A model generated the notes under the pieces. The model did not search any database. It worked only from the letters and a program-made list of their open reading frames with translations, and was not told the origin of the DNA. Made by a program: the position numbers and the translations under genes. Below, in pieces: positions 29,296-63,678 of a stretch of DNA of 64,000 nucleotides (its first letter is position 1; each line of letters starts with the position of its first letter). This DNA comes from Plumapathes pennacea (lineage: Eukaryota > Cnidaria > Anthozoa > Antipatharia > Myriopathidae), in the NCBI GenBank assembly GCA_964036295.1, contig OZ038466.1:26357997-26421996 (forward strand), read 5' to 3'.

Positions 29296-29793
29296 ATGCG
29301 GTCAAGACCATCAGCTGCACCACACATCATTACAACAGTTGATCCCTCTCCGTCAGGAAAGCAGGATAGCGGTAAATCAGTTCACATGTCAGGAAGAGAT
29401 AAACATCTTGAGGAGTCGCTTAGTGAAGTTGGCAAGTCATCCAGCTGCCGTGGTCCATCGAAAGTGGGCGACACAGTCATGAAGTTAAAGAAAGCACTGG
29501 TGCAGTTTGGTCGACACATGAAGACCCGCACTGAAGGCAGTGAAGCCACAAGGCGGGAGGAACGGCAAGAGAAGCAAGCACAACAGCAGTGGGAACAGCG
29601 ACGACGATACACAGCCCCTCACTTGGTAGAAAACTTTATCTTAACAACAGAGTTTGACCTCAAGAGAAATTCTTGGGCAGGAACCCGCTCCGCAACACCA
29701 GGCAAAGGCGGCGGTGTTCTTATCGATTCACTCGGTTTCCACGAGCTGAGCGATGGATTTTGGACAACGACTTTGTGTTCTACGGATCTTTAG
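29296..29793 (+). CDS. CSTEL-family protein 1 (intronless, PDZ-ligand tail)
   Basis: Uninterrupted ORF of 165 residues with its own TATA box (29235) and AATAAA (29856), giving a complete transcript unit of roughly 600 nt without introns. I do not recognise the protein. It has no signal peptide or membrane segment. A basic, possibly amphipathic stretch lies at residues 60-75 (KLKKALVQFGRHM). It is followed by a Glu/Gln/Arg-rich helical region (85-105) and a KRNSW basophilic-kinase-like site at 123-127. The tail GFWTTTLCSTDL is shared with the neighbours and ends in T-D-L, a class I PDZ-ligand pattern. Role is unknown; a disordered, phospho-regulated PDZ adaptor is inference. Confidence 0.78.
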   Translation: MRSRPSAAPHIITTVDPSPSGKQDSGKSVHMSGRDKHLEESLSEVGKSSSCRGPSKVGDTVMKLKKALVQFGRHMKTRTEGSEATRREERQEKQAQQQWEQRRRYTAPHLVENFILTTEFDLKRNSWAGTRSATPGKGGGVLIDSLGFHELSDGFWTTTLCSTDL

Positions 29794-29855
29794 CTTTCCT
29801 GCCCTGCGTGGCAGACTGTTCAAAGCATTATTTGCACTGTCATATTGGAACGGGG

Positions 29856-29861
29856 AATAAA
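29856..29861 (+). terminator. polyadenylation signal of CSTEL gene 1
   Basis: AATAAA 63 nt after the stop, followed by GTGTTGAGT. Confidence 0.7.
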
Positions 29862-30360
29862 AAAAGTGTTGAGTAAGTAACTCTGAGGCGCGGTATTTTA
29901 ATTTTCAAAGACTGAGTCGTGTAACGAGTAATTTCTTGGTATAGCATAATTCTAATCAGCCGAAAGGTTTCGAAAGAATCTGAAAAGGCATTCTCAATTG
30001 AGTGTTAATGGCATAAACGGCGAGACGGTGGTATTGTGCAGACAATGCTTCGATGTTCTCAATTGTAGTCGAATGAAGTCGGCAAGTAGTTCTGCGGTAA
30101 AGAAACAAAAGCGGACCATGGACCGTGAACTTTCTATCACTGCACTGATCTATTATCGACACCAGCATGATATACAGACTTCCTAGAGTTGCATCCAGTT
30201 TACACGAGAGCTTCGAGTGATTTCTGGCTGTCCTACCAGCACAATCGGGTCGATTCGCCGCCATTACAACTTGTCAATTAAAATGAGGCGAAACCATACA
30301 CAAGTAATTATAAAATTAGTAACGAGTTATATTAAAGGTAAACATATGTCGCTGAAACAC
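29862..30360. other. intergenic between CSTEL gene 1 and a MITE
   Basis: Nothing recognisable. Open frames at 29956-30264 (minus) and 29998-30186 (plus) overlap on opposite strands and lack the family tail. Confidence 0.5.
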
Positions 30361-30760
30361 AATAGAGTGGTAAAGTGATGACGTCATAAAAATATTTTTT
30401 TCGGAAATAATGGACTTTGCGCAATTCTTCGGAATGGCCTATCTAAAAAAAGTTCACACAGAAAAAAATTGGCTCTTTAGTGCATTAAACAGCTGAGATA
30501 TAGGCTTTTGAAGTTCAAATTGCTTTATACTAAACCCTCTTATTTGGTGTTGGTTCCTTTGATTTGGAACCAACGCTAAATAAGAGAGTTTAGTTAAGAC
30601 TATCTCGAACTTTAAACTTCTCTATCTTCGCTTTCAGTAGGGCTAGCGATTTGAAATTTTGCACACGTTCTTTCAGCAGCTGTGTATATCGCATGATGTG
30701 GTTTTGAGGTTTGAATGGAAAAGTTTGCAAAGTGATGACGTCACACTTTACCACTCTATT
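30361..30760. mobile_element. 400-bp MITE carrying a CRE in each inverted repeat
   Basis: Terminal inverted repeats of about 26 bp begin AATAGAGTGGTAAAGTG and end in TGACGTCAT, with one A indel between the arms. The interior holds a second perfect-looking hairpin near 30530-30595 (arms around TTGGTTCC and GGAACCAA). No coding sequence. The target-site duplication is unclear. Both arms contain a perfect TGACGTCA (30379-30386 and 30736-30743). Confidence 0.75.
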
Positions 30761-30845
30761 ACGGTATTATATAAAGGTCATCAAATAAAGATTTTAATTG
30801 CTGTGGTTTTAGGTCAGTAAGGACCGTCCTTTCATCCTGTTATTT

Positions 30846-30970
30846 CTCGGTCCTTCGTTGATTACTCGGCCTTTTGGTGGTTACTCGGCCCTTCGGTGAT
30901 ACTCGGCCTTTGGTGATTATTCGGTCCTTCGGTGATTACTCGGCCCTTTGGTGATTACTCGGGCGCTCGG
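30846..30970. repeat. short tandem repeat with an approximately 19-bp unit
   Basis: Six to seven imperfect copies of TACTCGGCCCTTTGGTGAT lie just downstream of the MITE, between CSTEL genes 1 and 2. Confidence 0.8.
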
Positions 30971-31986
30971 TCGAGAAACAGTACATGCTGATTGATTGGT
31001 GCGTTGCCGATGATCACGTGCTTTGCTGGCTACAAGTGAAGTGTGCCTACCAACTTGGAAGTTCTTTATAAATAAATTGAACCAGTGGTGGCTTGTTTTC
31101 ACTTTACTTCCTTTGTACATGGAAGGTACACCAACACGATCCAACTCTAGTGCTGTGTTTTTCGACGATACAGGCAGACAACTCTTTTCTACGAGACCCT
31201 GCAGACTGAGCCTGAAATTAATTGGATTTCCATCCAATCAAGTTTAGCATCGCATGTTTTATTGTTCATATTCGATCGCCAGCTCTTCCGTTGCGGAATA
31301 AACCCCAGGTGTTCGTGTGTAGTGTTATTTACTCCTGTTGAGCACAAGTAAGCGTGACTCACTTACGAATCAGCAGCTCGTGTCTTTAATTAGAACTCAG
31401 CGGGTTGCCACCATCACAGTGTTGAAGTGTACTCGAGAATGGAGTGATAAAAATAACCTTCTATCAATTTCACATAAAAGGTTAGCAAACGAGTCTTTGT
31501 AGTGTTGTTTTTTTTTTTTTTTTTTGGCAAGTAAAGCTCTTTTAGTATTAATGTTAGTGTTTTAGTATAGTTTAGTGTTGCTTTTAATTGGCCGGAAATT
31601 GGAAAATATTGATCGTGTTAACAACTAATCAAACGCTCATTAATCAGCCCGCTACAGGGACATATTTCAGTGCAAGATTAGTACTCGTGATGCAGTTAAT
31701 TTACAGCTGTTGTAGTTTGGCCTCAGTTCTTCGTTCCATGCATGCTGATTAGATTAAGGGACCTTATCGCTATTTTTCATCACTTGGTAACAGCAGGGGG
31801 TAGTTTAGCATTCAGTGTCAAAACAACTTTGGGTGAAACAAAAGCGTCGTATTTTAACTCGTGCGTAATTCAATATATCATTTTGTCGCTCCGAGGTTAT
31901 TAGATTTTGCGGTCAGATAAAGGACTACACTATTCTTTTCCGGAGTGAAAACTACGTAGGACCCAGGTCTGGCAAACAGTGCTCAC

Positions 31987-31999
31987 TTCTAGAAGGTTC
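31987..31999 (+). promoter_or_regulatory. three-box heat-shock element near CSTEL gene 2
   Basis: TTCTAGAAGGTTC is a perfect TTC-nn-GAA-nn-TTC array. It lies 24 bp before the first ATG of CSTEL gene 2, so it would sit in the leader unless the true start is downstream. Chance occurrence is possible. Confidence 0.35.
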
Positions 32000-32022
32000 T
32001 GTGGAGATCAGACCAGTCACGT

Positions 32023-32478
32023 ATGGCCGAATTGATTTCAATGCGATACAGCTTTATGCCTTGTTATCAAATAGTCATGGCAAATGTGGCGAAAAAGATT
32101 CCGTTTCAAGTTTACACTGTCCCGATGAACAGAGGCACTCGTTTGCGATCCTTCTCACTCAATTTAGAGCCAAAGTCGACAGCTTTAAAATCACACTATT
32201 CCTCCTCGGGAAGTACTTCAAGTCCACTGGATTTTCCTGCAGAGGAAACAGAGGTGGTTTTCTCGCCGTCTGATGGACAGATCTTGGCTGCTGTGGCCAG
32301 CAAATCTGGACAAAAGCAAAAAGGCAAACACGGTTCTAACGAAAAACGACAGGTGCGTCATTTATCTTACCCGAGTGAGAACCACTACAACATGAACGAA
32401 TGGCTGAATGAGCATCAGCCTCAGACCAGTGTTATCAATGGATTTCTTACCACGACTCTTTGCTCAACAGAGCTTTAG
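32023..32478 (+). CDS. CSTEL-family protein 2
   Basis: Uninterrupted ORF of up to 151 residues; the Met at residue 19 is an equally good start. Unrecognised apart from the tail GFLTTTLCSTEL (residues 140-151), ending in the class I PDZ pattern T-E-L. Two basophilic-kinase-like sites stand at RLRSFS (40-45) and RHLSY (112-116). The middle is rich in Ser, Lys and Gln and looks disordered. No signal peptide or membrane span. A weak TATA-like AGATAAAGG lies near 31914 and AATAAA at 32809-32814. The neighbouring family members share essentially only the tail and the R-x-S sites. Confidence 0.72.
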   Translation: MAELISMRYSFMPCYQIVMANVAKKIPFQVYTVPMNRGTRLRSFSLNLEPKSTALKSHYSSSGSTSSPLDFPAEETEVVFSPSDGQILAAVASKSGQKQKGKHGSNEKRQVRHLSYPSENHYNMNEWLNEHQPQTSVINGFLTTTLCSTEL

Positions 32479-32808
32479 GAGGACTTAAAATACACGAACT
32501 CAATTTACAGAGAACGTTTTGTTTACCAATCGAAGATCATTAGGTCAAGCATTGGTTTATGTTACTGAATTGTAAATACAGTTTGTGTAGGAGCACCAGG
32601 ACCTGAAGAGACAGGCGTTGAAATGGACATCAGAACCCCTAATTGCTCAGTTTGCAGGACACTTGAGTGAGCAAACGCGGAGATACGTGACACGGATAAG
32701 TGTCAAGGCTCACACAAAGAGAAATACAGAGAAATGACAGAACTGTTAAGCCGAATATTAACCGTATATTGCGATTACCTTCAACAATTAAGATCTAATG
32801 TGAATACA

Positions 32809-32814
32809 AATAAA
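32809..32814 (+). terminator. possible polyadenylation signal of CSTEL gene 2
   Basis: AATAAA about 330 nt after the stop codon. Confidence 0.5.
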
Positions 32815-34202: not shown

Positions 34203-34208
34203 TATAAA
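34203..34208 (+). promoter_or_regulatory. TATA box upstream of CSTEL gene 3
   Basis: TATAAA in TCTATAAACCC. It would give a leader of about 380 nt to the ATG at 34618, or a leader containing an intron I cannot place. Confidence 0.45.
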
Positions 34209-34617
34209 CCCGCAGCGCTCTTCTTAGATATTCAAAATAGGAAGAAAGAACAAAGCGGGATTTGTCGTCGCTTTTTATGTTTTAGACCTCATTTTTCAAG
34301 CTCGTCAAGTTCCCTGAAACATACAACTCGACCGCAGACCGCTCAACTTGAGCGCGTGACGCCCGTTAGCTGCTGGGCTTCTGCCGAGTTCCTGACCTTT
34401 CTGCCGTGAAGGCGTGAGTCAAATCTTGTGATAGGATCTCTATGTTAATACTCATCAATGTTTTTCGAGAGGCGACTGACTGTTTACGCACCAGGCGGCA
34501 AGTTGTGATATTCAAAGAATGAGCGCATTTGTGTAGAGCGGTCCAGTCTTTTCCGTAATCAACTGTTTAAAGTTTCTCGAGTGAACGCGACTGCCTACTT
34601 GTTGTTGTAAACAAAAT

Positions 34618-35112
34618 ATGACAAACGAGAAGAATCCGCGGCAGAACTACAAGCTCTCGGACAGCGTAAGCTCCGCCATGGTTCGGCTGGCTCGGAGATT
34701 GTCTCCTTTAAGTTGCGTCAGGGCTCCGAACTTGCCAGAAAACTGGAAAGATTACGAAAAGGGGGAGTCCAGCACTGAATGTCGTGTGGACGCCTGTAAA
34801 ATGAGCAAAGAGAGAAATGAAAGTGAGAGCATGAACTTCACTGAGGAGCAGCGACATCGACAGTCTTCTAACCCGCCCAGGTTGAGGCGGAGCAGTTCCT
34901 GCACCGTTCTTAGCTTGGATCAAGTGGATAGTCTAAGGAGACAAGCTGAGCTGGGTGCACACTGTATTCAGCATCTCGAGCCCGCAAAGCCGCGGTGCCA
35001 CTCGTTTGCAGGAATTAGAAGTGCAAGAATGGTGGATTACAACGCCAGAAGTCGAGACACCCAAATCATAGATGGTTTACTCACTACTACATTGTGTTAC
35101 ACGGAGCTGTGA
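34618..35112 (+). CDS. CSTEL-family protein 3
   Basis: Uninterrupted ORF of 164 residues. A short basic amphipathic-looking stretch lies near the start (MVRLARRLSPL, 21-31). A highly charged middle follows, then RRSSSC (90-95) and RCHSF (126-130) as basophilic-kinase-like sites, and the tail DGLLTTTLCYTEL. This is the only copy with Tyr in place of Ser in CSTEL; the class I pattern T-E-L is kept. No signal peptide, membrane span or known domain. Codons of the tail differ from the paralogues at nearly every third position, which argues for protein-level constraint on the tail. Confidence 0.73.
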   Translation: MTNEKNPRQNYKLSDSVSSAMVRLARRLSPLSCVRAPNLPENWKDYEKGESSTECRVDACKMSKERNESESMNFTEEQRHRQSSNPPRLRRSSSCTVLSLDQVDSLRRQAELGAHCIQHLEPAKPRCHSFAGIRSARMVDYNARSRDTQIIDGLLTTTLCYTEL

Positions 35113-37855: not shown

Positions 37856-38266
37856 TCACAAGTCAGTCGAGCAGAAGGTTGTGGTCAGAAGTCCGCCAAC
37901 AATATTCGTGTCGCACAAGGAACTTGTGTCATTAGTAGAGCTGACCTTTCGCAGTTGGTTTGAACTTTGCTTCTCCCTGACTCGCATACTGTTCAATGTT
38001 TCGAAGTCCAGTGAACTACTCCGTTTTCTACGGCGACCTACTTGCTCTTCTTGCATTGCCTTCCCATTCAAAGGATAATCCTTTTCAGTCTTGTATTTGG
38101 GTTTGGCAGTGCTTTCCTGTGCTTCTTGGTTTGGAGTTCCCTTTCTCGAGTCGCCTGTGATTTTTTCAGAACGTACAGATTCCTCACCGTCCCTGCATTT
38201 CCCTTCACTGTGGGGTCGTTGCGTCTCAAGATTATTAAGTGGAATACACATGTCAAAACAACTCAT
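37856..38266 (-). CDS. CSTEL-family protein 4
   Basis: Minus-strand uninterrupted ORF of 136 residues, hydrophilic throughout after the first ten residues. It has a basic kinase-like cluster RRRKRSSSL (78-86) and the tail GGLLTTTFCSTDL, ending T-D-L. No signal peptide, membrane span or known domain. It is convergent with gene 3 and in the same orientation as gene 5. The antisense open frame at 38042-38335 is treated as its shadow because it lacks any family feature. Confidence 0.72.
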   Translation of the reverse strand: MSCFDMCIPLNNLETQRPHSEGKCRDGEESVRSEKITGDSRKGTPNQEAQESTAKPKYKTEKDYPLNGKAMQEEQVGRRRKRSSSLDFETLNSMRVREKQSSNQLRKVSSTNDTSSLCDTNIVGGLLTTTFCSTDL

Positions 38267-39918: not shown

Positions 39919-40353
39919 CTAAAGCTCGGTAGAACAGAGCGAGGTGGTTAGCACTCCATCTTCCAGCACCGTGCTCGATGTACCTCCGTATGAGTGTCGC
40001 TTGAGTTGCTTCAAGCTGTCAAGGTCATCACCATGAAGCGCATACAATTCTTCCACACTGTGCGTCAGTTCATAAGCAGAATTGGTGAGTCGTTTGACGT
40101 AATTCACTTGGCGTTTTGCTGCAATCGTCAGCCCAGGTCTAATTTGGCCGAATTGTCCTTTGTGCTCCTGTGTGTCGCAATCCGCACCATCCTTCTGGAC
40201 CGAACGTACGTTCAGATAATTCTTACAATTCACGAGTTCCTTAGTGTGCCCATCGGTGAAAGTGACGGACACCTTGAGCTGGTTGTCGTGACTTGACTGA
40301 TTCATGACGGTGGCGATCAGATGTGCGTACGCACTCCGCATCTCATCGCTCAT
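39919..40353 (-). CDS. CSTEL-family protein 5
   Basis: Minus-strand uninterrupted ORF of 144 residues. Unlike its relatives it may have some fold: VSVTFTDGH (28-36) looks like a strand and VKRLTNSAYELTHSVEELYAL (86-106) like an amphipathic helix. IRPGLT (71-76) recalls the twice-repeated RPGL motif of gene 6. KRHSY (118-122) is the basophilic-kinase-like site. The tail EDGVLTTSLCSTEL ends in T-E-L. It is divergent from gene 6, with a CRE between them. Function unknown. Confidence 0.76.
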   Translation of the reverse strand: MSDEMRSAYAHLIATVMNQSSHDNQLKVSVTFTDGHTKELVNCKNYLNVRSVQKDGADCDTQEHKGQFGQIRPGLTIAAKRQVNYVKRLTNSAYELTHSVEELYALHGDDLDSLKQLKRHSYGGTSSTVLEDGVLTTSLCSTEL

Positions 40354-41988: not shown

Positions 41989-43098
41989 ATGAGAGAAAGT
42001 ACCAATGCAACAATGAATTCGACGATGAGGAAGCTAAGCATTGAAATATCGAAACTAGGGCTGCGGATTCGTACTCCCACTCCATCAAACAGCGACAGCG
42101 AAACTGTTGGATCCGGTGATGAAATGCAAAGTATAGACACAGCGGCGGAAGACATCCTGTCCACAGATAGCTGTGGGGTCCAACTGCCGCTTGAAATACA
42201 GCAAAATGGAGGCAACTCGACAGACGGAAACAAGGTATGCAATCAAACAACGGCGTGCGCCAAACCTACGCGGCCGGGACTCAAACGTAGATGTCGATCA
42301 GATATTGCCCAGTATAAAAACATGCAGGTAAGGACAGGGGATCGAAGCCCGAAATCTGAAGACATCCCTGAAGATGAAAATATGAATAAGGAAAAAGTGG
42401 AAGAACTCTCTCTGATGCCCAAATGCGCGCCACTGGTTCGTCCAGGTCTAAGTCGAAAAAGCCGATCGGATTTGGCGAAATACTCTACCGTTTCTAGGAT
42501 GGAGGGTATATCGGGTGTGAGCGGCAAAGCCAGCAGCAGTGACGACCTACAACGACGACTTCCCATGTGTGAGGGAGGACGCGAAACATTTCCCAAGATT
42601 AGGTATCAAGTTGCTCCTACCCAGCAACAACAAAGAACCGAAGCAAATACGAAGCAAAAACGCTTCAAACCCAGAAGAAGCAAATCATTTACCTCGTTGT
42701 TAGGAGGCAAACATAAATCAAAAGAGACAAATGAACCGGCTGTTAGTACTGAGAAACGGGCAACCTTTCCACGTCGAAGATCGTTCAGTGGCAAGCAAGA
42801 AAAGAAGAGGGAAGAGAAAGCAGATAGCAGCAACGGAACAGTAAGCAGTCAGTCCAACACGCCGTCACCGATCGCTAAACCAACAAACACGTCACGCTAT
42901 CGAGTCGAGCTGGACACAGGTCGTGTGCCAGGGCGCGTTCACCCTCAACTCTCCGCTCGCAGAAGTTGGACTTATGAAGACATTATTGGCACACAAACCT
43001 CACTTTCTCTCAAAAACACTTTTCATAAGGACGTGTTCAATGGGGTCCGCTCTAATCATGACATGATGGAAACTGACTTTTGTTCAACAGAATTGTGA
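41989..43098 (+). CDS. CSTEL-family protein 6, the long member with an internal repeat
   Basis: Uninterrupted ORF of 369 residues, more than twice the length of its relatives and strongly hydrophilic. A 16-residue repeat occurs twice: TRPGLKRRCRSDIAQY (94-109) and VRPGLSRKSRSDLAKY (150-165). Later come three basophilic-kinase-like sites: RRSKSF (229-234), RRRSFSG (262-268) and RRSWTYED (324-331). The tail METDFCSTEL belongs to the second tail subtype, shared with gene 7. No signal peptide, membrane span or known domain; disordered scaffold-like composition. AATAAA follows at 43897. The length without a stop codon makes this the most secure ORF of the family. Confidence 0.85.
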   Translation: MRESTNATMNSTMRKLSIEISKLGLRIRTPTPSNSDSETVGSGDEMQSIDTAAEDILSTDSCGVQLPLEIQQNGGNSTDGNKVCNQTTACAKPTRPGLKRRCRSDIAQYKNMQVRTGDRSPKSEDIPEDENMNKEKVEELSLMPKCAPLVRPGLSRKSRSDLAKYSTVSRMEGISGVSGKASSSDDLQRRLPMCEGGRETFPKIRYQVAPTQQQQRTEANTKQKRFKPRRSKSFTSLLGGKHKSKETNEPAVSTEKRATFPRRRSFSGKQEKKREEKADSSNGTVSSQSNTPSPIAKPTNTSRYRVELDTGRVPGRVHPQLSARRSWTYEDIIGTQTSLSLKNTFHKDVFNGVRSNHDMMETDFCSTEL

Positions 43099-46701: not shown

Positions 46702-49700
46702 ATGGTCCTGGAGAGAGAAGTTCTGCAGTGCCCGGTAAGTGAACCAGTGCGTCAGTTGCCTTGCAGTGCCGCTTTTGAATAATTCTATGAATAATTCTGC
46801 TGCATCACAATTCGACCGTTCTTCATCAATACATCCGCGGCGTTGCCAGACTGAATAGGGAAATAGTGGCTAAACCGCAATAGAAGAAGATTGCTCTCTC
46901 TTGTTCCATCGCCGAATTTTTGAGTGTAAGATTGACGATGCGTTCATTTGCTGCTTCTTCGCCGAAGCTTACTCGTGTGTTTGCCTGGCTTGAATAGATT
47001 AACAAACTAAAATCGTGAAGTTCTAGAAAATTTGTTACATGGAGGAAGCTAGTAATAGTAACAGACAATAATCTGAGCAAACTTATTATCTCCAGAAGCG
47101 AATGCCGATGTTTGTGGCGTTGTTGTGTTTATTCGTGGCAACATGTGCCGCGGCGTCCCCGGAAGGTGAGTTGTAACTTGGTTTTTTTATTGCCCAAATG
47201 TCGAAACAGTTTCACTTCGTGTGGCAAAAAAGTTAAGCTTGTCTGCTGTATTCAATGAATGTTTGAGTGCTATGTTTTATACACTTAACGAATAGTTGCA
47301 ATTTTCATATTTCGGCTCCCTCCTTCGCGTCAATGATTCTTTGCATTGTTACCACATCTTCCTTATTGTGAAGACAAGTTTAGTGGCCGTAACAAAATTA
47401 CACTGTTGTCAAATGTTGCGAACTGGGATCTTTAAATTTGTCTATTGTATCTCGTCAATGCTTTCCTCGACACTTGTTGTGTACAGTGTTGTGCTGAATT
47501 ACCCCGTGCCCCACATTCCGCACTCTATATGTAACAGCATTGTACACGTCCGCGCGTTGTTTTTAGTTTCGAACCATTCTGACTTTCCTGCTGAAAAATT
47601 GCTTCAAACAGAAAACAGAGGCTCGCGCTCTGCTGGCGGTGAGTTCTTTGAGGGTGACCTAATGTTAACTGAAAGCCAGATGGAGATGAATGAAGGAAGG
47701 GCAGCCATCAAAAGCAACTTGTGGCCCCAAGGAGCGCTGGTCTACTACATTGACAATTCCCTCGGTGAGTATTGCGTGTGTTTTATCGGCGCTTCTTGGT
47801 TTGTAGTTATCAGTTTTTTTGAAAATACTGTTAAAGCCTTTAAATGTATCAAATAATGTTTTCCGTGCGAAAAGTCTTTACGATCTTTAGGTGATCTTGG
47901 TTTCAACTGAATACAAAGCATACACGGGCACAGATATAATTTTGTATGAAATCACACAATTAAGGCGATATTACAAGGCCACAAGTCAGCTGAGTCATTT
48001 TGAAAAACGTCAGGGTCGATTAGCTGTCTCACGGTTGACTCGTAATGATCATTTCCATCTGGACAGCAAAAGAACCAAAAGCCATGGCGGTCGTCGCAAG
48101 TGCAATGAAAGAATGGGAGCAAAAGACCTGCATCAGATTCGTGAAAAGGAAATCAGAATCCAGTTATGTACTGTTCTTCAAAGGGAGCGGGTGAGTGAAT
48201 TTGTCCACGATCAAAATCATACTTAGTTTATAAATTTAGCATTATTGATAACAATTCAGAATCACTCCCTAGTTTTCGTTTTCGACGAGCAGTTGTCGAG
48301 GCCCCAAAATTTGGTCAAAATAAAATACTGTGAACTCTATCCGCTATTGAAAGGACAGCAGTCTCAATGGGTGCGTAGTTTATATTTTTAACTTGTGTTA
48401 AACGGACAGCCTGACTTACAGGCTGTACAATGAAATGGAATTTCTGGGAGTGATTTCTGGGGAGTCTGTTATTATGACCAAGTATACTACAACAAAAGGC
48501 AAATTTAAATCTCAGCAGACACTATTTTGAACGGACACCAAAATTCTAAAGGTTTCCACGTGCTAATTTTTGTACACAGTTGTGAGTATATTTTTTTCCA
48601 CAGCTGTTGGTCGTACGTCGGCAAAACTGGAAGAGTTCAGAAGCTCTCGTTAGCTCCCGGATGTTGGCATCACGGAATTGTGATTCACGAGATTGGTAGG
48701 TTCAGATGTTTAGATGTATTCCACGCGGTCGAGCTTCATTAAACATCAGTTGATATCTTCAGATAAAATGCACACACACTACAAATATGCAATTCAAACG
48801 AGACGGAGCCGTGGTTTCTCCTGGGGCTGCTATATTTAGGATTCAGATAACGGAATGTTTTATTTCAATTTTTCAGGCCACGCCCTTGGCTTCTTTCACG
48901 AACAGTCTCGTCCTGACAGAGATTATTACGTCGTCATTGAGTGGGACAACATCATTGAACGTAAGTCGTGTAATATGGCAACGCTTCGTAAACAGTTTAA
49001 AATGAATGGCCTCTTGAGCAAGTGTGCTTCGGCCTCTCGCTACTATCACGCTAATTCTTTAAAACCTAATAAGTGATCATTATTTTTGCAATTTAATAAA
49101 CCTTGATCTGCAACTAACTACAGTGTCCCACTATTGTGGTCAAAATGTCTACATTTTCAGAGAGCAAGCACAACTTCAAAAAATACAGCAAAGACCAGTT
49201 GGACTCGCTGGGCACACCCTACGACTACGGGAGCATTATGCATTATGGGAGCAGATACTTCAGCAAGAATGGCAAACCCACCATCGTGAGCAGGAAGCCT
49301 GGGGTGAGTGACTTGTGTTTGCGGGAAGTCTGGGGTGAGTGAGTTGTGAAGGGACAAACCAAAGTGTGACAAGAGACTGGGAAGGAACTGAATGTATGCC
49401 AAGAGGAACTGCACGATGTTAAACTCGGACAAAACATTAGCGTTGCTCTTTTTAATGCGCCACTGAATCATCTTGTAAGTTAAACTTTTATGTCCAACTG
49501 ACCTAGAAGCAAACACACCGACTAATTAGCCCATGATTCCTCACTAGGTCACCCTCGGACAGAGGAATGGCTTGAGCCCAATCGACGCCCTCCAGATGAA
49601 GCTGCTGTACAAGTGTATCAACGGTAATGTGTACATTATTTGGATGTCGTTCGGGTTTGACAGAGTCTAACTTGACTCCTGCTTTCCTTGTTCATAGCGT

Positions 49701-52700
49701 CCGATCCATCTTGCAACTTTGATATCAACACGTGCGGATGGACACAAGATCACACGGCAATCTTCAAATGGACTCTGGGTTCAGGAAAAACACCGTCACG
49801 CAACACTGGCCCGTCTGCAGATCATTCTGGGAAAGGTGCGTGACGTCAGCTTGGTATTGCAGTTGAGGAGCACTTCAAACTGCATTTTGTCTTGTGCATC
49901 CAATCAAATGCATTTTCCGTGATCACTAATGACGTTGAAGGACTGCAGGACAGTTACAAGAATAGAAAAATTTCCCAGAAGAGAAACTGTTGTTTGCTAA
50001 TGAAATTTGAGTTGTATTTACCCAATGTTCGATATATATCATACTCGTCGCTGGATTGGTGTATTCAAGCAGGTCGTGTTCCTGTTGATTTTTCTTTTCC
50101 TTAGGTAAATACATGTACACAGAGGCTTCGTTTCCCCGGCGTGGTGGAGACTTCGCCATCTTGTCATTTAAGGGGGCTCACAGTGGCAGTTCTTGCATGA
50201 CGTTCTTCTATCACATGTACGGCTCTGGAATCGGATCACTCAACATCTACAACAATAACAAAATGCTGTGGAGTGAATCTGGTAACCAAAGCAACGCCTG
50301 GCTTGAAGCGCGAGTCACATTGAGGGGAAATTATTACGTAAGTGTGTTTCAGTAATCACGTGAAACAACGCTTTTGCGCTCGTTAATAATTTCTGATGCT
50401 GATTCGAGAGGTGACGTCTGATTTCCTTGTCGCATTGTGTTTCAGTTGGTGATTGAAGGAGTTCGGGGACCTTCGTTTATGGGAGACATTGCAATTGACG
50501 ACATCTCCATTTCCGAGGGGAAGCCATGTGAATCTGCTACGCCAAGTCCCGTCATACCGACGACAGCAGCACCTCAGGAAGGTAATGTCCACTCCAAAAT
50601 ATTTTTAGTATGAAAATCATTATTGGAAACTAATCCCTTTTTTGCTAGTGGGAGATCTACCCGTTTGCATGAATAAATGTTTATACTGGTTGCCGATCCA
50701 TCGAGCATTAACCGAAATCCCGCTTGGCAACTTGCTCAGGGAACTAATTTTTTCTTTCATAAACGTATTTGTAAAGCAACAGGTTAAACAAGTTAAAGTG
50801 AACCAATGATTAAATTTCCCTCAGGCTGTGGAGTTTCACCGGCCATGCGCGTTATTGGAGGCGTGGATGCTAAGCCTGGGAGCTGGCCGTGGCAGGTGAG
50901 GCAAAATCCGCTGACTCTTCACTGCTTGACCCTTGCTGCTTTACTTCTTTCCAAAATTTGTATCAAATCTATAGTGCACAAGTCTTTAATTTCTGCTATT
51001 AGTATATGCTTTCGTTTGAGGGGTCACATTTGTAGGTTTTGATTGACAATTAAACGTTTCGTGTCAACTGTCACCTTTGGCAGTGAAATGGAAGTTTGGT
51101 TTATTGAAACTAAAAGCACATTCCCGTCTAGAAATCTTTTTCCTAAGTTAAAGTTCTTTTGATTTTCTCCCATCAGATTGGTCTTTATCGCAGCGGAAGC
51201 TTTATTTGTGGTGGTTCCCTTATTAAACCTACCTGGGTTGTTACAGCAGCACACTGCGTTACCAAGAAGTAGGTCACGCAATCCCTGTTACTACTGGGTG
51301 TCTTGCTTGTGTGTTTGACTGCCCGTCTGTCACTTTTTCCTTGTATCTCTTTTCCCCCTGTCTTGCTTGTGTTCGTCTGTCCAACTTTTTCTTTCTCTCT
51401 CCTTGTGTTTGCTTTTGTTTGTGCGTGTGATGATCAGCCTTCTTTTCTCAACGAACCCGGATGTAACGGCTCCTCTTCTCTCGCTCCAGTGATCCGCAAA
51501 TTTATGTCGTTCGTCTGGGTGACCACAATCGCGATGTGGACGAGGGAAGCGAACAAGACATCGGTGTGCTTAAGATCATCGCGCATGAACGCTACAACAC
51601 TCCGCTGCTCAATAACGATATAGCGCTGCTTCAGTTGGAAGAACCAGCAATTCTCGGCGGCCGCGTTGGCCTGGTGTGTCTGCCACAACAAGACTTCCAA
51701 GTTCCAGAAAATTCCAACTGCTACATTACGGGTAAGATTACAAGAACTAATTTTATTCAACTTATCAAACTAATCATACCAATGGACTTTATTGTTGAAA
51801 TGATTGTCGAGGAATACTATACTCAATATTTACTGCCGGTTTTCAGTGTGTTTTCTTCCACTTCTCGGTAAATCCCATACCAAACTACTTCAATCAGTCA
51901 GCCCTTTAAAGTTTCTTCACCGCTTCAAATAAGACCAATTCCAAAGTTATATCTAACTCGAGTTTCTCTGTACCTGTGTCGAGGTTGGGGTAAGATTAAA
52001 CATCCAGGGGGCGCACATAACATCCTGCAACAAGCGAACATGCCGCCAATCAGCCAACAAGCCTGCAAAGACAAGAACCCGTTTGAAAGTAAGTGTCTCG
52101 GTGCTATTGTTGTCAACTGTTTTTACTTCTTTCTGAAACTAGAAGCTCTTCTTTACTTTAGAGTGCTAACTTTGTCGTGCTTTGAAACTTAGATATTAAG
52201 ATCACAGACGAGATGTTATGCGCCGGTAAGGAAGGATCAATTGTCAGTGGTTGTCATGGGGACAGTGGAGGACCGTATGTGTGTCAGAATACCGCTAGTC
52301 GCTGGGTACTACAGGGCGACGTCAGCTGGGGCTCGGGCAGCTGTTCTTCACAACAAATGTTCACAGTGTTTGCTCGAGTTGCAAGGTTTAGGAACTGGAT
52401 CGAACAGTTCGTTGGTGGTGGTGAGTGTTAGAGGAGTCTTAGTTGTCACTTGTTTTTAGCTAATAATAGGGTTTGTTCACTGTTTACATTTTTGCTGGTT
52501 CTCCACTAATAGTATCTTTAATTTATTTGGGTTATTTTTTTTGTGCTCTAGCTTCAACTCCAACACCTACAACTGAACGCCTTAGTAGTAGTAGTGGTAA
52601 GTACTGTCCCTACAATAGCCACTAAGTTTAAAATTTAAGCCGTGCATTTGATGAATAAGGATGTTTCTAATTGTCCACCGATTTTTTGGTCGTCGTTTCC

Positions 52701-54950
52701 CCTTCAGTATCATCTAGCACTGGTAAGAGTACCAAAACATTGTGCCCAATTCATTTTCTTTTATTGGTTAACTTGATAACTTTTTATTATTTTTTAGTTT
52801 CACCTTCACCGCGCACAACTCCAGACCTCAGTAGTGGTATCTCAAAACTTCAGTTCCAAACTTATTTCCTTATATTTTATTAATTTGACAAACTTTTTTT
52901 TTTTTTCGTAGTTCCACTTTCAACACCCACAACTCCAGACCTCGGTAGTGGTAAGAATCTGGAAACATTGTGCTGAATTTATTTCCTTATATTAGTTAAC
53001 TTTGACAGACCTTTATCTCGTACTGTCCCCTCGACCTCTCACAACTCCAGACCTCCAAAGCGTTAAGAATCTCACAAACGTGTGTCAATATTAACTTGAC
53101 TTCCTTTTGTTTCGTAGTGTCCCCTCCACCGCCCACAACTGAACAGCCCATTAATGGTAAGTATAACAAATAGCTTTCTTTCCGAGAATATTTCTTTGCC
53201 TTATTTCTTTTCCTGAACGTTGCAGGCTGTACTCCACGATAAAAATAGCTTTCTTTATAAATAAACGGCAAACTATTTCTTTAACCTTGATCAGGATTTC
53301 CACGTCTAAGCCGGGCCCAGTTGTTCAAAGCGTGATTAGGCTAATCCTGGCTTAGATCCAAACTTCAGCCTGAAAATGGGAAGAATTTTTTCACAAAACA
53401 ATTCCTTGACATTTGTTGGTCTTTAATCAATACCCTGCAGTTTGTTGGTCACGAGGCCGTTGAGATAAAGAATTTGGTTAATCCTGGATTAGCTTGATCG
53501 GCCTTTGAACAACCAGGGGGGCCTTGGTTTGTAAAGGGAGCCACAACGTGACAAGAGTAAAGTGACATTTTAGGAGTGACATAAAGTGACAGGAGTGACG
53601 TGCCGTGCATGATTCCAGATTTAACCAAACACAACTTGACTTATTTTCCTCTGTTTTTCTTTAAATTCTGTAACATTCAGTATCTGGAATCCTGGACATA
53701 ATACAGCATCCTTGATCTTGTTGTTCGGTTACGAGCTGGCTACATTTCTCTCTTTGCTTTTTTCCAGCTCAATGTGGGAGTCGTCCCCGTTCTCGTATAG
53801 TTGGTGGTGTTGAGGCTCCCGTGAATGCTTGGCCGTGGCAAGTGATGCTGAGGAGGAAGCTTGGGTCCCAGTTCTGTGGCGCTTCCTTAATTAATACCAT
53901 GTGGGTTGTAACTGCCGCACACTGTATCAGCCGACAGTCCCCGCAAACCTTTTACGTTAGGTAAGTCAATATTTAATGAGACAAAGTCAAAGGATGATTA
54001 ATCCAGAAATGGTGGAGCATTTTTAAAACTTCTGCTGCAGATTCATAGACCCCCTGTGAGTTTAATGAAATTATTTGAGGTTCACGAAACCTCAAGCTTA
54101 TTATCTACCTTCATCGACTCACCTCAATATCGAAAAACAAATGTCTCTTCTCTGTGCAGCAGATGTCAGGGTTCAATTCGATATATTACAATTTAGAACC
54201 TTTGAAATGTATAATTTATGCCGTATGTGATTTGGCAATGAATCTCGTCTGTTATGAAATACACGAGTAAATGTTTTCCGAGCCGGATGAAAGATCTTCT
54301 GAGATACAACCTGCTTCTCTGGTTTGAACTTTAATTTCTTTCTTTTGTTGTTTCTCTGGTTGAGGAATATTCACTGTTTTTTTGCTTGCTTGTTTAGGCT
54401 TGGCGCTCATTTCAAAGACAAAGTGTCCATTGGAACAGAACAAGACGTAGATATCGCCAAAATAATCCCACACCCGGATTATCACAGACCCGTGAAGTAC
54501 AGCAATGACATCGCCTTGCTCAAGCTTGCCAAACCTGCCAAACTCGGTAAAGGGGTCAGCCCAGTTTGTCTGCCAAATATTGAGATCGTTCTCCCTACTG
54601 ACGGATCCAAGAGATGCTGGATTACAGGCTGGGGCACTCTTCAATCCGGCGGAGCTCAGCCTGACGTGCTGATGGAAGCGACAGTCCCATTGGTCTCTCA
54701 AGCGAAATGTAACGTTTCCTATCCCGGTCAGATCAGCAACTCCATGCTTTGCGCGGGACTTGATCAGGGGGGCGTGGATGCGTGTCAAGGCGACTCGGGG
54801 GGGCCACTGGTGTGTGAGTTTAATCACGTGTGGTATCTGGAAGGGGCCACTAGCTGGGGGTACGGATGTGCTAAGCCGAACCGGTATGGAGTGTACGCCA
54901 AGGTACGCGAGCTGAAGAGCTGGCTGGAGACGACCATGGCGACTAACTAG
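46702..54950 (+). CDS. Secreted polyprotease: astacin, MAM and two trypsin-family domains
   Basis: 23 exons join in phase to 995 residues: 46702-46734, 47096-47165, 47567-47764, 48067-48190, 48604-48695, 48877-48960, 49161-49303, 49548-49623, 49698-49835, 50105-50337, 50446-50581, 50825-50895, 51177-51268, 51490-51731, 51984-52088, 52193-52420, 52552-52596, 52708-52722, 52798-52836, 52912-52950, 53118-53156, 53768-53960, 54398-54950. Order: signal peptide ([18 protein letters not shown]); astacin propeptide with the FEGD aspartate switch; astacin with [12 protein letters not shown] zinc site and SIMHY Met-turn (to about 273); MAM (to about 425); serine protease 1 (R/VIGG about 451, TAAHC, NNDIALL, HGDSGGP); P/T/S linker (689-747); serine protease 2 (R/IVGG about 757, TAAHC, SNDIALL, QGDSGGP). 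Domain 1 has Ser at the S1-base position 189 and TVF where elastase has it; domain 2 has Asp189 (trypsin-like). Least certain are exon 1 and the 48067 acceptor. Confidence 0.87.
53024..53062 (+). pseudogene. fossil linker micro-exon of the polyprotease
   Basis: Exactly 39 nt, like three live linker exons, reading (G)[13 protein letters not shown] in phase. The acceptor TAG has become TAC (53021-53023) and the donor GTAAG has become TTAAG (from 53063). Both splice sites are therefore dead while the reading frame is intact. Confidence 0.8.
53311..53523. mobile_element. MITE of about 210 bp in a polyprotease intron
   Basis: Inverted ends: left GGGCCCAGTTGTTCAAAGCG with GGCTAATCCTGG, right GGATTAGCTTGATCGGCC with TTTGAACAACCAGGGGGGCC. 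About 45 bp at each end is complementary with mismatches. No coding sequence; target duplication not resolved. Confidence 0.7.
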
Positions 54951-54998
54951 CTCATGAGTTGAACTACTTTAAATTATTGTAAACGAGGTCCAAGGTGT

Positions 54999-55004: not shown

Positions 55005-55016
55005 AATAAAATAAAT

Positions 55017-55851: not shown

Positions 55852-56295
55852 TTAAAGCTCTGTTGAACACAGATCAGTCTCTGGAGAGTCGAATACATGG
55901 TGAAATGAATTACTTCTTGATAAAATGCCACCTACTTCAACAGGCGCGACTGGGCTCAGCAGGCTGTTGAAGTCGCCCAATGAGTTGCTTCTTCTTTTCC
56001 TCAAAGGCGGCCTTTTCCTGGATCGCGGACTCGAATTCATTTTTTGCTGCTTGTTTAGTTGAACTATTCCCTCACTTTGTGGTGTTGTATTTTTATGATC
56101 AAAGTTCTGTCGGCCCATCTCAGGCTGCACCGATATTCTTTGTCTTCCTACGCCAGTACTTTGCGCAAACATTTCGATCCTGGGCATTTCAATATTTATC
56201 CCTGGAATCATGCCCCTTTTCGTCGCACCTGTTTCTAAAATGGTTGTCGCTGACGACTTCAATGTCGGTCCCACGTCGGTTTTATGTGGATTCAT
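55852..56295 (-). CDS. CSTEL-family protein 7
   Basis: Minus-strand uninterrupted ORF of 147 residues, the nearest relative of gene 6 by its tail SPETDLCSTEL. A strongly basic block with a kinase-like site, RSRKRPPLRKRRSNSL (91-106), precedes GDFNSLLSPV and a second site SRSNSF (126-131). It is hydrophilic, with no signal peptide or membrane span. A weak TATA-like sequence lies on the minus strand near 56350. It opens the second block of family genes, all on the minus strand. Confidence 0.76.
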   Translation of the reverse strand: MNPHKTDVGPTLKSSATTILETGATKRGMIPGINIEMPRIEMFAQSTGVGRQRISVQPEMGRQNFDHKNTTPQSEGIVQLNKQQKMNSSPRSRKRPPLRKRRSNSLGDFNSLLSPVAPVEVGGILSRSNSFHHVFDSPETDLCSTEL

Positions 56296-58560: not shown

Positions 58561-59022
58561 CTAGAGTTCCGTGGAGCACAATGACGTGGTCAAACACCCG
58601 TCCACCATGTGAGTGTCACTATCACTAAAAGATCGCAATACTCTTGTCAGATCTTCCAGGTCTATTTCATCTTCAGGAATCGAACTATCGACATCCACCT
58701 CAAAAGTCACTACGCTTGGCAAACCTTTTGTTGTGGCTCTCAGCTGGCGGTCAGTCTTGTACAAATCGACACAAATTGAGAAACACCTTTCTCTTTTGAG
58801 CGAAGTTATCGGCCTCTGGTCTCTTCTGGGATATGAGTTTCGCCTGTATTGTTCAGTGTAAACTCCGTGTTCACGATCCCTGTTCTCTAACAGACGCTTG
58901 TTGCTGTTTACGTCGAACGCTTTAACACCAGGCGATGCGGGGTCGTGCCCTTTGTGGGCATTCCTTTCAGCAGACTTGGACAGACGAAGGGATTCTGCAA
59001 CTTTTTTGATGTAAGTTTTCAT
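58561..59022 (-). CDS. CSTEL-family protein 8
   Basis: Minus-strand uninterrupted ORF of 153 residues. It begins with a basic amphipathic-looking helix (MKTYIKKVAESLRLSKS, 1-17). It carries two kinase-like sites (RRNSY 60-64; RVLRSFS 127-133) separated by an acidic stretch (112-124, IPEDEIDLED core). The tail MVDGCLTTSLCSTEL ends in T-E-L. A good minus-strand TATA box (59307-59314) would give a leader of about 250 nt. No known domain, signal peptide or membrane span. Confidence 0.75.
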   Translation of the reverse strand: MKTYIKKVAESLRLSKSAERNAHKGHDPASPGVKAFDVNSNKRLLENRDREHGVYTEQYRRNSYPRRDQRPITSLKRERCFSICVDLYKTDRQLRATTKGLPSVVTFEVDVDSSIPEDEIDLEDLTRVLRSFSDSDTHMVDGCLTTSLCSTEL

Positions 59023-59306
59023 TTCGCGTTAGAATCTCCACTCGGTCTCAGCAACAACGACCATTGACGATTAGTGTTTCTTGTTTCCTTGTTGATTTTC
59101 TCACGCTGAGGTTTTCGACGTCAGTGCAGCAACTGATATGTGACAGGCGAGACTTCTTTCACTAAAGTCGAAAACTGGAGATTTGTGGTGAAAGACATGT
59201 TATCCATCAGCATCCTGGATACAACACAAATAGTTTTCCATGTAACTATAGTAAGGAATGCGGGATTTTGTGGAAGTTTTGAGTCCACTTCTGCAGTCTA
59301 TATATA

Positions 59307-59314
59307 TATTTATA
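59307..59314 (-). promoter_or_regulatory. TATA box of CSTEL gene 8
   Basis: Reverse strand reads TATAAATA within a longer alternating TA run, upstream of gene 8. A CGACGTCA half-CRE lies between it and the ORF near 59117. Confidence 0.5.
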
Positions 59315-60902
59315 GCTTATGAGGTTTGGTTTGATAACTGAAAGTTGTCAAACTACGTCACAGTTGAACGGACCTGCTGTTCGGTTGGTCTGATGCTCAG
59401 TGCTCATGCGTAGTAACGGAGATGCAAGTCGAGTTGCGGTCTGTAGGAAAAATAATGATAGAACAAAGAGATATGTCTGGATGGTTTTTCTTGTACTTAC
59501 ATCAATTATTCGTTTATTTTCATGTCTTTTAACGATTTATTCGTTTACTGTTTCCTGCCTTTTATAATTTTTTTCCTTTTATCGATTCATACGTGTATTT
59601 TATGGCGCGACATGATTATCACCGCAAAACCCAACAAAAGGAATTCTTATTAGTCGAGCAGAAATGCGTCGCCACCATTGTTTGGATATGTCCAGTTCAG
59701 GGGAAGTACTTCCAACAATCAAAACCCAGTTGATTATAAATGAAGGAATCGTTTTCTATCAAATTACCAAATCCCTCTTTTCAGGACAAAATTTCCCCTG
59801 CAGTCTGGTTGAGCTTATGAGAACAATGGCCTTTGCTTTGTTGTATGTGACACACCCCTTCTCTCACAAATTCAGAATAGGAGGCAATGCATTCGAACAT
59901 GTATATAGAAATTCAGAGAACATGTGGTTTTCATTTATGCATTAGTGCTCTGAGGCCCGAGACTGACGGGCGAGACTATAGAGCAGCCAGCTCAGTCAAG
60001 AATTGTTACAGCAGTGATTACTGCAGACAGCGGATACCTTAACCTGACAAGCTTTAAAATAGAGACAATGCATACTTGAACTAAAAATTACGCACGACTA
60101 CCTTGAACTGAAAAAGGCACGTCATTTTGTAAGTAAATGTACGTAAGATAAGACGATGCTTTGGACGTTTCACCAGAACGTACACTCGTTGGGCACCCGA
60201 TTGCGATTTCGGTCTGGCACAGATTTTTAAAATGATACCTGATGGACAGCACTGCATCAATGTATGAAGTTTATTGTCCACTTCCGGTATTGTTTCATTT
60301 TTCCTTTCTTACTCTTGGACGATGACGCACATTAGAAATAATCTGTAGTCACGCGATTTAAGACCTTGATGTAATCAACAGAGCATTGCTTATTGACGTC
60401 AAATGATTTCTTATGGGATCCCTGCCGTTTTAATCCATTACTCGGCCAAAGATGAAATGAAACCATCATCCTCATTCTTGAATATTGTGCTACCCATCAA
60501 TGTACATCATCGTTGTCATCCGCTAGATATCCGCTATTAGGTCACGTGATCATGCGGTTGTACATTAAGACAAATACCTTTGATAATAAATGCTCATAAA
60601 GTGCTTGCCAGTACTAGTCCCAGACAAAGCAACAAGGTGCCACTTGTTTAGAATGCGGATCGCTCAGTAAATAATCTGAATTGCTATTGTATCACGGTTT
60701 GCGTTTGATACTTTTAGCTGTTCAGGCGAGCTGTCTGTTCTAAAGGTGTTATTTCATTTGCGCTAGAATTCAGTCAGACGGCTGCCGTACGTGCTTTATT
60801 CTAGAGCATGAGGCTGTAAAGTATTGGCGCTGTCTTAATTAGAAATATCGGCGCCCCCTGATAAGTATTGATGTATAGCTATTAGGATTCGATATTCTTC
60901 TG
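59315..60902. other. intergenic, one CRE
   Basis: Perfect TGACGTCA at 60394-60401. The plus-strand open frame 59664-59945 has no recognisable feature. No gene called. Confidence 0.5.
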
Positions 60903-60920
60903 TCACGTGACGGGTATAAA
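60903..60920 (+). promoter_or_regulatory. orphan promoter-like element
   Basis: TCACGTGA (60903-60910) directly precedes TATAAA (60915-60920). The first downstream ATG opens only 17 codons, so there is no obvious coding gene behind it. A non-coding or decayed transcript is possible; a further TATA box lies at 61274-61280. Confidence 0.35.
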
Positions 60921-63003
60921 CTGGCTCACAATCTCGTTGAACCTGCAAAGTTTCTTGAAGTTTACTCTCAATGATAGAGCCCTACAGTAGATATTTTCTC
61001 CCTTTTCTAGTTATTTGTTATTGATGTATTGATATATGAGTTGTTCGTGCAATTTTACACCATGTTTGATTCTTGAAAATTGTACAATTTGGTACATATG
61101 ACTATCTATTTATTATGTGACTTTAGTACAGAAAAGTTTGGCACTTAAATTTAATCATATTTCTCTCATTTCGATGTCACAGTTGACAACTTGTATATCG
61201 CAAAAAGTTTCATAGTTATATGAAAATAAACGTTGTTTCGTGGCGGCTTCATGGGTTATTGGCGTAGTTGTTATATAAATATATGGAGTTTGGCGCCCTG
61301 GCCACTTCACTTGGTGTGAGAGCTTACAGTCATTCCAGGGGTGACTTCAGAAACACAACTGATGGCATCGTCACGTTAGTATAAGGTCAAATGCACTTTC
61401 AGAGTGAAGACGCGAAACTCTAGGCAGCCACAACTCGACGGCTGCTCAGAGCTTTAGGCAGCAGCCTTGAAACGTGAACTAATGAAAGCTGTAAACGTGG
61501 GCATTTCATGAATGATGAACAGTTCTATCATTATAAGTAGGCAAAGAGCGGGGATTCATGCAATGAAACTGAGTCTATGCTATCAAAAAGAACTTACGGT
61601 TTGTTAGTGATAACACAATCCGAGTTTAATGTGAAAAACCGCCGCTTTCTCATGCAATCTGACCATCGAGTGTTCTGAATCCGAATGTTCTCTTCAAACG
61701 TGATCAACGCCATAAATGCTATATTTGAAATTGTTGAAGAAATCTGGAAGTTTCTTAGAGAAGTTTTTCAACATTTTACAAAGACCTTCGTGGTCTACGT
61801 GGGACCACAGCTGCGCAGCAATGTTTGAAGTTTTTATACCATGTTATTTCAATTAATTAACTTCCTGTTTTTCAAAGAAACACTAAATGTACGCATGCTA
61901 TTATGTGATTGTTCTTGTTTCTAGATGTGCCTACATTTATCTACTCCGCTACATCTATTGATATGTCCCTCCCTCTTGGACTTGAAGGTGCCATGTTAAG
62001 GGCTTCGTTACTGCATATTTGTCCAGATTGATATCGTGCACTGTAAAAACAGACTTCCATTTCTCGTTCACATGTTTACACACTGTAAATTGATCTCAAA
62101 CACGTACCACAGAACGATGATTTGGGACAATCTGTAAAGTATATATTTGTAACGATGCTTTATGGCAACTTGTCAGTGAATATGCTTGATTGAATTTCCG
62201 GAGGAAGGCATGGCATTTGTTGGCCATAGTGATAACTTACTGCATTATCTGATAATGATATATATTGTGACATTTACTCCTTCCTTCGATCGCTTGGACT
62301 CGACGTTCCACTTACATGTTAATGTTTTTGTGTCACAAGTTACTGATCCATAAGATACTCGTCGAATAATCGTTTTCAATCATTAATTGTTAATGAATTA
62401 ATTAGTGAAACTTCTAGATGTTTCCTTTTCCTCTATGAAGTTTAATTCTTTAATGTATAAATAAATCTTTACTATAATACAAAGTTCAGTTGTGCTCTTT
62501 ACGTAAATGTATATTCAAACCATATGATTGGTGAAACGCGGAATGCTCACTCTTCCGTTCCAAGCCGTTTTGGTATCGACTTCCGCTGAACTAGGAAACA
62601 CGAGGCGCTTTATTTGAGCTGCTTCCTTGAAGCAACCATTCTTCATGAAGTTCATGCTATGTATACGGAACTGGGGACGACGTATACGCAGTAAATTCAA
62701 AGTTTAGATTTTGCGGCTGTTACCATGTTTGTTTGGGAAGAAAAAGGCAAAAAGGAGGAAATAAAAGCGAAGACCGTCACAAAACCGTTTCAGAGAGCTT
62801 CAAGTTAGAGTGCAATTTATACAATTGCTAGTTAACTGAACGTTACAAGAACGTCCACATTCAGTGATCATGTTTGCCTCGGGCCATTTTAGTTGAAGAA
62901 TGTTCAAAGGTTACAGCCTGTGTGTCTCGTTCGTTCGTTCTGTTTTCTGCTTGCTTTAGCGAGCAAAGACTTGATCAACAATTGAATAACAAACGCTCTG
63001 GTA
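60921..63003. other. intergenic, AT-rich, no gene seen
   Basis: Contains TATA-like TATAAAT at 61274-61280 followed by a six-codon ORF (ATG near 61362), and an AATAAA near 62459. No protein family is recognised. Confidence 0.5.
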
Positions 63004-63339
63004 TTTATTTCCATATAAAGTTTAACATCTTATTATAAATAGTTCATGTACAAGACATACATACGTCAATATTTTTAAATTGTTGACCTTGGTTTACCGT
63101 GTGGTATAATTAGGCGATCAATTCACTCTTATTATTTAAGCCCCGTATAATAACCCAAACCGGATTTGACTCCGCATTGATACTATGCAGCTTATATTAT
63201 TTGTGGTCTCGGAAAACAAACGCATCTTTCAAAATACACCAACAAAACCAATACGTTAATTCTTTAGTACGCGTGGATATCGTGAGGAAAGCGGCTTATT
63301 TACATTTCAAGTTAAATCATGTGTTGCGAAAACGTTCTT

Positions 63340-63678
63340 TCAAAGCGTTGTAGTGCGAATCTGAGCGTCAGACATCCTATCCAAAACGTCAATCTCACAA
63401 CTACCAATGTTCACCTCCCCAAAGGAGCGGGTTCTTCTCACTGGGGGTACACTTATTAAATTGGAACTCTGTGATCGATTTCTGGGTAAAGTTCGTGTTT
63501 TCATTGAGTGCTCCGAGAAGGACGATGACGGTGCGCGTCGCACAAGTTCTGGAGTTCTTGGTAAAGAACCTCTCCTTTCCGTCAATCGGATCTTCCTTTT
63601 TTCTTGAGCCCTCCAACCCACACCTTCAACTCCATCGTACTGTTCAAGGCCTCCACACAACGCTGTAGAATGAAGCAA
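63340..63678 (-). CDS. candidate divergent CSTEL-family member 9
   Basis: Minus-strand ORF of 112 residues, same orientation as genes 7 and 8 and about 4.3 kb from gene 8. It shares the family habit rather than the exact tail: two basophilic-kinase-like sites (RRGSL 35-39; RRTRSF 81-86) and a short spacer. Its end is IDVLDRMSDAQIRTTTL, where T-T-L is again a class I PDZ pattern, and TTTL recalls the TTTL that precedes CSTEL in the others. Downstream codons do not spell CSTEL, so it is not a simple nonsense truncation. Reverse-strand AATAAA at 63004-63009. Membership is uncertain. Confidence 0.45.
   Translation of the reverse strand: MLHSTALCGGLEQYDGVEGVGWRAQEKRKIRLTERRGSLPRTPELVRRAPSSSFSEHSMKTRTLPRNRSQSSNLISVPPVRRTRSFGEVNIGSCEIDVLDRMSDAQIRTTTL

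Follow-up and report, generated by a model that had tools for sequence, protein, structure and literature searches.

What can unite a group of neighbouring genes whose proteins are alike at their C-termini and hardly anywhere else? This is the question posed by a 64,000-nucleotide stretch of the Plumapathes pennacea genome (the window: bases 26,357,997-26,421,996 of contig C5, which is 26,554,996 bases long and has an end ~133 kb away), in which a preliminary description had picked out eight open reading frames (ORFs) ending in C-[SY]-T-[ED]-L immediately before the stop codon. Here we add a ninth member and a second shared feature, an excess in the bodies of the proteins of motifs resembling phosphorylation sites. 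The explanation that we favour, with a probability of about 0.6, is that the ORFs represent a clustered, tail-held family of probably single-exon genes encoding mostly disordered, phospho-regulated adaptors that would dock by means of a class I PDZ-binding tail.

Nine open reading frames with a common tail

All eight ORFs are present in the window with the starts, ends and reading previously reported, six of them (29296+, 32023+, 34618+, 37856-, 39919- and 58561-) with a long form of the tail, G-x-(L/W)-T-T-(T/S)-(L/F)-C-(S/Y)-T-(E/D)-L, and two (41989+ and 55852-) with a short form, E-T-D-(F/L)-C-S-T-E-L. Flanks of 100 kb per side were added and the resulting 263.9 kb covered by a tail regular expression and a tail weight matrix. 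The expression identified a ninth, long-tailed member in the flanks, 5.3 kb outside the window, and no tenth tailed member was found in the 263.9 kb by either scan. In order along the DNA (strands +,+,+,-,-,+,-,-,-; window coordinates) the members are as follows.

29296..29793, + strand: ORF of 165 amino acids (aa), putatively single-exon; tail DGFWTTTLCSTDL, codons 29752-29790
32023..32478, + strand: ORF of 151 aa, putatively single-exon; tail NGFLTTTLCSTEL, 32437-32475
34618..35112, + strand: ORF of 164 aa, putatively single-exon; tail DGLLTTTLCYTEL, 35071-35109
37856..38266, - strand: ORF of 136 aa, putatively single-exon; tail GGLLTTTFCSTDL, 37859-37897
39919..40353, - strand: ORF of 144 aa, putatively single-exon; tail DGVLTTSLCSTEL, 39922-39960
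41989..43098, + strand: ORF of 369 aa, the longest; short tail METDFCSTEL, block 43057-43095; contains RPGLKRRCRSDIAQY and RPGLSRKSRSDLAKY
55852..56295, - strand: ORF of 147 aa, putatively single-exon; short tail PETDLCSTEL, block 55855-55893
58561..59022, - strand: ORF of 153 aa, putatively single-exon; tail DGCLTTSLCSTEL, 58564-58602
69307-69705 (beyond the window), - strand: ninth member, 132 aa; tail VEDGVLTTSFCSTEL

Are these tails anything more than the chance ends of chance ORFs? The count was made over 212 kb, from -99,995 to 112,000 in window coordinates, with the repeat-rich far end left out. This region contains nine tails, 21,313 segments running from stop to stop and 35 ORFs that extend for 130 aa or more from an ATG, and all nine occurrences of C-[SY]-T-[ED]-L-stop terminate ORFs of this length, making up nine of the 35 (Fisher P 3e-26). 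The pentapeptide itself is found just once more in all six frames of the region, and the looser expression C-x-T-x-L-stop has one additional match in the window, in a 6-codon segment. On a weight matrix made from the same nine tails, and hence circular for those nine, the tails score 35.1-41.8 bits and the best other place in 264 kb scores 11.7. The length of the ORFs would be insufficient evidence by itself, because 6.4 ORFs of at least 130 aa arise by chance per 205 kb in a Markov-2 simulation (10 runs). GC content is higher in the ORF than in its own 500-bp flanks in nine of nine cases (barely so in the ninth, 0.446 versus 0.441) and eight of the nine ATGs have a purine at -3. Given that every tail terminates a long ORF, chance ORFs were rejected.

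Recent duplication or gene conversion, and not selection, could also have made the tails alike. The genes are clustered, as this would lead one to expect, and no tail copy turned up elsewhere in our tail searches. Where two tails have the same residue, however, the codon is shared in 81 of 284 pairs, versus 87.3 expected under random codon use, which bears out the earlier remark that the tail codons differ, and the bodies are unalignable once the tail is removed: with the 13 C-terminal residues taken off, none of the pairings of the nine members and a further ORF at 63340 (see below) matched at E<0.05, 30 shuffled sets giving 0-2 such pairs each. With codon matches at the random level, it is the peptide itself that has been kept alike, and the tail is not accounted for by recent copying or by a signal in the nucleotides. 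For these nine genes we therefore reject recent duplication or conversion, which has next to no chance of being right. The ORF-end counts and the codon result together support the idea of a paralogous family united by its tail at the protein level, and we are almost certain that this is a real protein-coding family kept by that tail. To judge from these alignments, the paralogs have retained their likeness in the C-terminal ~13 residues and nowhere else. A weak block, L-K-R-[NH]-S-[WY]-[AG]-G-T, is common to 29296 and 39919 (E 0.89, tails removed), and HSFAGIRSA in 34618 resembles it.

Each ORF might instead form just the final coding exon of a gene that is spliced, in which case the proteins would be larger than the small orphans envisaged. 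An acceptor-like TTTTAG stands right before the 41989 ATG, and upstream exons are of a kind that only transcripts would make visible. Against this, an in-frame stop lies 1-34 codons upstream of the first ATG in all nine ORFs (no more than two codons in five of them), eight of the nine ATGs have a purine at -3, and the strand switches three times among the nine, which rules out one gene that uses alternative last exons. We consider the last-exon explanation improbable and the genes probably intronless, with room left for introns in the 5' untranslated region or for an upstream coding exon.

Is the family confined to this locus? Three tail queries of the genome (290 Mb, 24 contigs) revealed no tail copies outside the cluster, at limited sensitivity: the consensus query regained five of the nine known copies and the other two queries two each, the 34618 tail matching itself and the 58561 tail and nothing more. 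When full-length proteins were compared with the whole genome, 39919 and 58561 matched only themselves, 41989 matched itself and gave two weak, chance-like matches (on C2 and C3), and 55852 matched itself and gave one (on C4). These weak matches were rejected, their translations reading as an ABC-transporter-like pair and low-complexity sequence. The four full-length queries failed to regain other known members and thus have little to say on divergent relatives. As both kinds of query miss known members, the status of the family as a single cluster is provisional.

Searches of literature text found no paper in which CSTEL and PDZ occur together as whole words; LCSTEL, FCSTEL and TSLCSTEL were absent, and LCSTDL appeared only in papers unrelated by title. 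Broader searches likewise gave no such family in titles or abstract openings and, within that scope, the earlier statement that no family with this tail has been described still stands. Pfam and NCBIfam scans of the eight window members found no family above cut-off (the sub-threshold matches were Transglut_C, E 0.0035 and 17.9 bits versus a cut-off of 26.6, CHD1-like_C, E 0.09, and Fdhalpha-like, E 0.15), and the longest member, the one of the nine compared with the PDB, had no match there at E<=10. On the strength of the literature and domain searches, the best reading is that the family is undescribed.

The preliminary description had the cluster end at 63678, a position that fits none of the ORFs named in it. 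A tail-less ORF (63340-63696, -) sits there, with RRTRSFGEV, RNRSQSSN and the end RTTTL; from its first in-frame ATG it encodes only ~54 aa. It is similar in style to the cluster bodies and could be a frame that has decayed, one that is spliced or one with no relation to them. As the CSTEL tail is absent, it was rejected as a tenth member.

The tail as a probable PDZ ligand

What might read such a tail? All nine members have L(0), T(-2), C(-4) and T(-7) without exception, and the variation at -1 (E/D), -3 (S/Y) and -5 (L/F) is conservative. The seven long forms also have T(-8), L/W(-9), G(-11) and T or S at -6, two of the seven having D at -1; in the short forms (41989 and 55852), E stands at -8 and D at -6. 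Class I PDZ domains bind C-termini of the form [S/T]-x-hydrophobic-COOH, and all nine proteins end T-[E/D]-L, in line with the earlier proposal that this is a class I ligand. The PDZ groove binds its ligand as an added strand; a tail that is strict at 0, -2 and -4 and free at -1, -3 and -5 would fit such a strand, the invariant T(-7) not being part of the alternation. All nine also have the end x-T-x-(L/F)-COOH, the consensus given for Shank1 C-terminal ligands in the available portion of PMC12589307, an end that suits other class I PDZ domains as well. The genome contains 74 PDZ matches at E<=0.001. Eight of these PDZ regions were fetched and two compared with solved structures, for which the best matches were alpha-1-syntrophin (5e-46) and NHE-RF1 (2e-24). 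Its residues make it likely that the tail is a PDZ ligand.

The same family could nevertheless have a tail whose reader is not a PDZ domain, such as a C-degron receptor, a co-repressor-type docking partner (WRPW/Groucho-like) or a process acting on Cys(-4), whether lipidation or redox. A class I PDZ ligand strictly requires just 0 and -2, whereas in the long form the likeness spans 13 residues, and C(-4) and T(-7) are present in nine of nine members. The residues at 0 and -2 are, on the other hand, exactly those of a class I ligand, and the alternation of fixed and free positions fits strand addition. Three familiar C-terminal consensus signals, KDEL, SKL and CaaX, were rejected, as the letters of the tail do not fit them and its cysteine, at -4, has four residues after it. 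A non-PDZ reader strikes us as rather unlikely.

The short and long forms differ in a further respect. Where the long forms have T(-8) and T or S at -6, the short forms have E(-8) and D(-6), a pattern that could come from a phosphate-mimicking swap. According to the available portion of a review, PMC2891790, a phosphate on the PDZ ligand is inhibitory to binding at -2 or -1, has a slight effect at -4, -7 and -8 and has little effect at -3, -5 and -6, as reported for three tested domains.

The bodies of the proteins and the favoured explanation

Do the bodies have anything in common? Serine makes up 12.5% of residues, and basic serine motifs are enriched relative to composition-shuffled controls, which preserve letters and not local charge clusters: R-x-x-S occurs 27 times in the nine bodies (shuffle mean 15.8), R-[RKSH]-x-S 18 times (4.8), [RK]-x-x-S-[FYWL] 13 times (3.2, a count reached in none of 2000 shuffles) and R-S-x-S at eight sites across six of the nine bodies (2.0, P 0.001). 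These motifs look like basophilic-kinase sites and, in part, 14-3-3 sites. Since the bodies too are enriched in them, the view that a single docking tail is all that the proteins are kept for is too restrictive. That the proteins are phospho-regulated adaptors is plausible from these motifs, if still tentative. The disorder also ascribed to them is likely but less firmly based, its basis being composition: a charge-hydropathy plot puts six of the nine proteins on its disordered side and three on its ordered side.

According to the explanation that we favour, a tandem family of nine would encode small, mostly disordered, cytosolic adaptors, the tail of which would dock as an added beta-strand in the class I PDZ groove of a scaffold of Shank, NHERF, syntrophin or Dlg type. 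L(0), T(-2) and C(-4) would point into the groove, and those farther upstream, as far as G(-11), would lengthen the contact or engage a second partner. The fast-changing bodies would bear phospho-dependent docking sites of basophilic-kinase and possibly 14-3-3-like type, such that the paralogs could each bring a regulated partner of their own to one shared scaffold, or compete with other ligands of the scaffold. One may go further and propose, for an anthozoan-type lineage, that selection keeps little beyond the 13-residue plug and the phosphosites, that the nine are interchangeable PDZ plugs that rewire or compete for one scaffold and that the tail holds a phosphate-like switch; this is a speculative extension, possible although on the unlikely side.

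Several observations weigh against the PDZ-docking adaptor explanation. A canonical PDZ pocket usually reads 4-6 residues and the likeness of the tails extends beyond this, to G(-11), so that a different receptor may drive the tail. The little or slight effect of ligand phosphorylation at -6 and -8, as far as the available portion of PMC2891790 goes, speaks against a simple phospho-switch at those positions. No strong shared 6- to 9-mer was detected in the 600, 300 or 150 bp upstream or the 800 or 400 bp downstream of the nine ORFs, the best uncorrected P being about 2e-4; common promoter or 3' elements were rejected on this result, no promoter word common to the nine having been found in these upstream regions. 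The three proteins on the ordered side of the plot and the loss of local charge clusters in the shuffled controls count on the same side. Finally, the R-S-x-S cores in six of nine members recall 14-3-3 clients with basophilic sites, but the 14-3-3 mode I consensus is R-S-x-pS-x-P and the proline at +2 is found at none of the eight sites.

Orphan families usually go unseen because their bodies are unalignable, and a fixed C-terminal plug provides a searchable signature. The plug also makes its binding partner open to test, and the nine bodies, all joined to one tail, form a natural series. Should it bind one scaffold, the family would be a clean case of short linear motifs, and not folded domains, uniting a gene family, and would give an entry to scaffold wiring in a non-bilaterian animal.

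Comparisons and neighbouring features

How does the cluster compare with known systems? Scaffold adaptors of the GKAP/SAPAP (DLGAP) type are similar in being disordered with a C-terminal class I PDZ-type x-T-x-L; according to the available portion of PMC12589307, the x-T-x-L end of GKAP docks in the PDZ groove and the protein has almost 1000 residues, compared with 132-369 aa in the cluster. The present family differs further in being clustered, in having no Pfam domain above cut-off (eight members scanned) and in its unalignable paralog bodies. It might, purely as a working likeness, be thought of as a miniature analogue of GKAP-type PDZ-ligand scaffolds.

A second comparison, made in the preliminary description, is with the insect E(spl)/Bearded complexes. 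In drosophilids, as far as the available portion of PMC1310631 describes them, the E(spl) bHLH genes are intronless and encode proteins with bHLH and Orange domains and a stereotyped C-terminal WRPW, and Bearded family proteins have a basic amphipathic helix at the N-terminus. The analogy holds for the layout, a cluster of small genes, intronless in the case of E(spl) bHLH, with a stereotyped C-terminus. It does not extend to the proteins: neither bHLH nor any other Pfam domain is found above cut-off in the eight window proteins, the tail is CSTEL and not WRPW, and a Bearded-type helix was not detected in the nine proteins, the best 18-residue moments being no better than those of shuffles (P 0.05-0.98) and the best window lying near the N-terminus in only one (34618). 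Nor does it extend to Notch-target features, a Su(H)-type site (YGTGRGAA) being present in just one of the nine 600-bp upstream regions.

Could the family be linked to another gene nearby? One exon in the flank bears on this.

-49249 to -48110 (L016:747-1886), - strand: last exon of a putative TESK/LIMK-like kinase gene; contains KPGLKRASFSDMAHY, matching the two repeats of 41989

The gene is 90 kb away, and the members might be derived from its C-terminal part or share a partner with it, given that the 41989 protein contains two copies of the motif [RK]PGLxRxxxSDxAxY and the last exon of the kinase a single copy. The motif is, however, found in one of nine members and the exon has no tail; the overall likeness is weak (26.9 bits, matched by four of 500 shuffles). 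The exon is moreover unrecognised by Pfam at E<=0.01, for which reason the kinase name is a reading of residues. A 21-residue motif query of the genome found the two 41989 repeats only, missing the known kinase copy, and the kinase exon itself found no relative of note in the genome, with three weak matches (E 0.9-5.7). A link of this kind is very improbable.

Between the sixth and seventh members, at about 47300-54950 (+), lie astacin-, MAM- and trypsin-type exons belonging to one or two protease genes, and an exon matching TMEM249, an auxiliary subunit of a sperm cation channel, is found at 26078-26539 (+; Pfam E 1e-20). Near the end of the contig, at window coordinates of about 143000-159300, there are long tandem arrays of CIPMYSPVF and SYKLSYKPRTNSRTN types in which several frames are open. 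GFP, looked for as a taxonomic marker, had no match in the genome, nor in any control genome. Elsewhere in the assembly, a mitochondrial-type contig (C24, L046-L048; 17,711 bases), on which genes other than cox1 are named from reading translations, would point to a hexacorallian anthozoan, probably a sea anemone: it has cox3 before cox1 and nad4L and cox2 after it, and cox1 is split around an ORF that by eye resembles an intron-encoded endonuclease.

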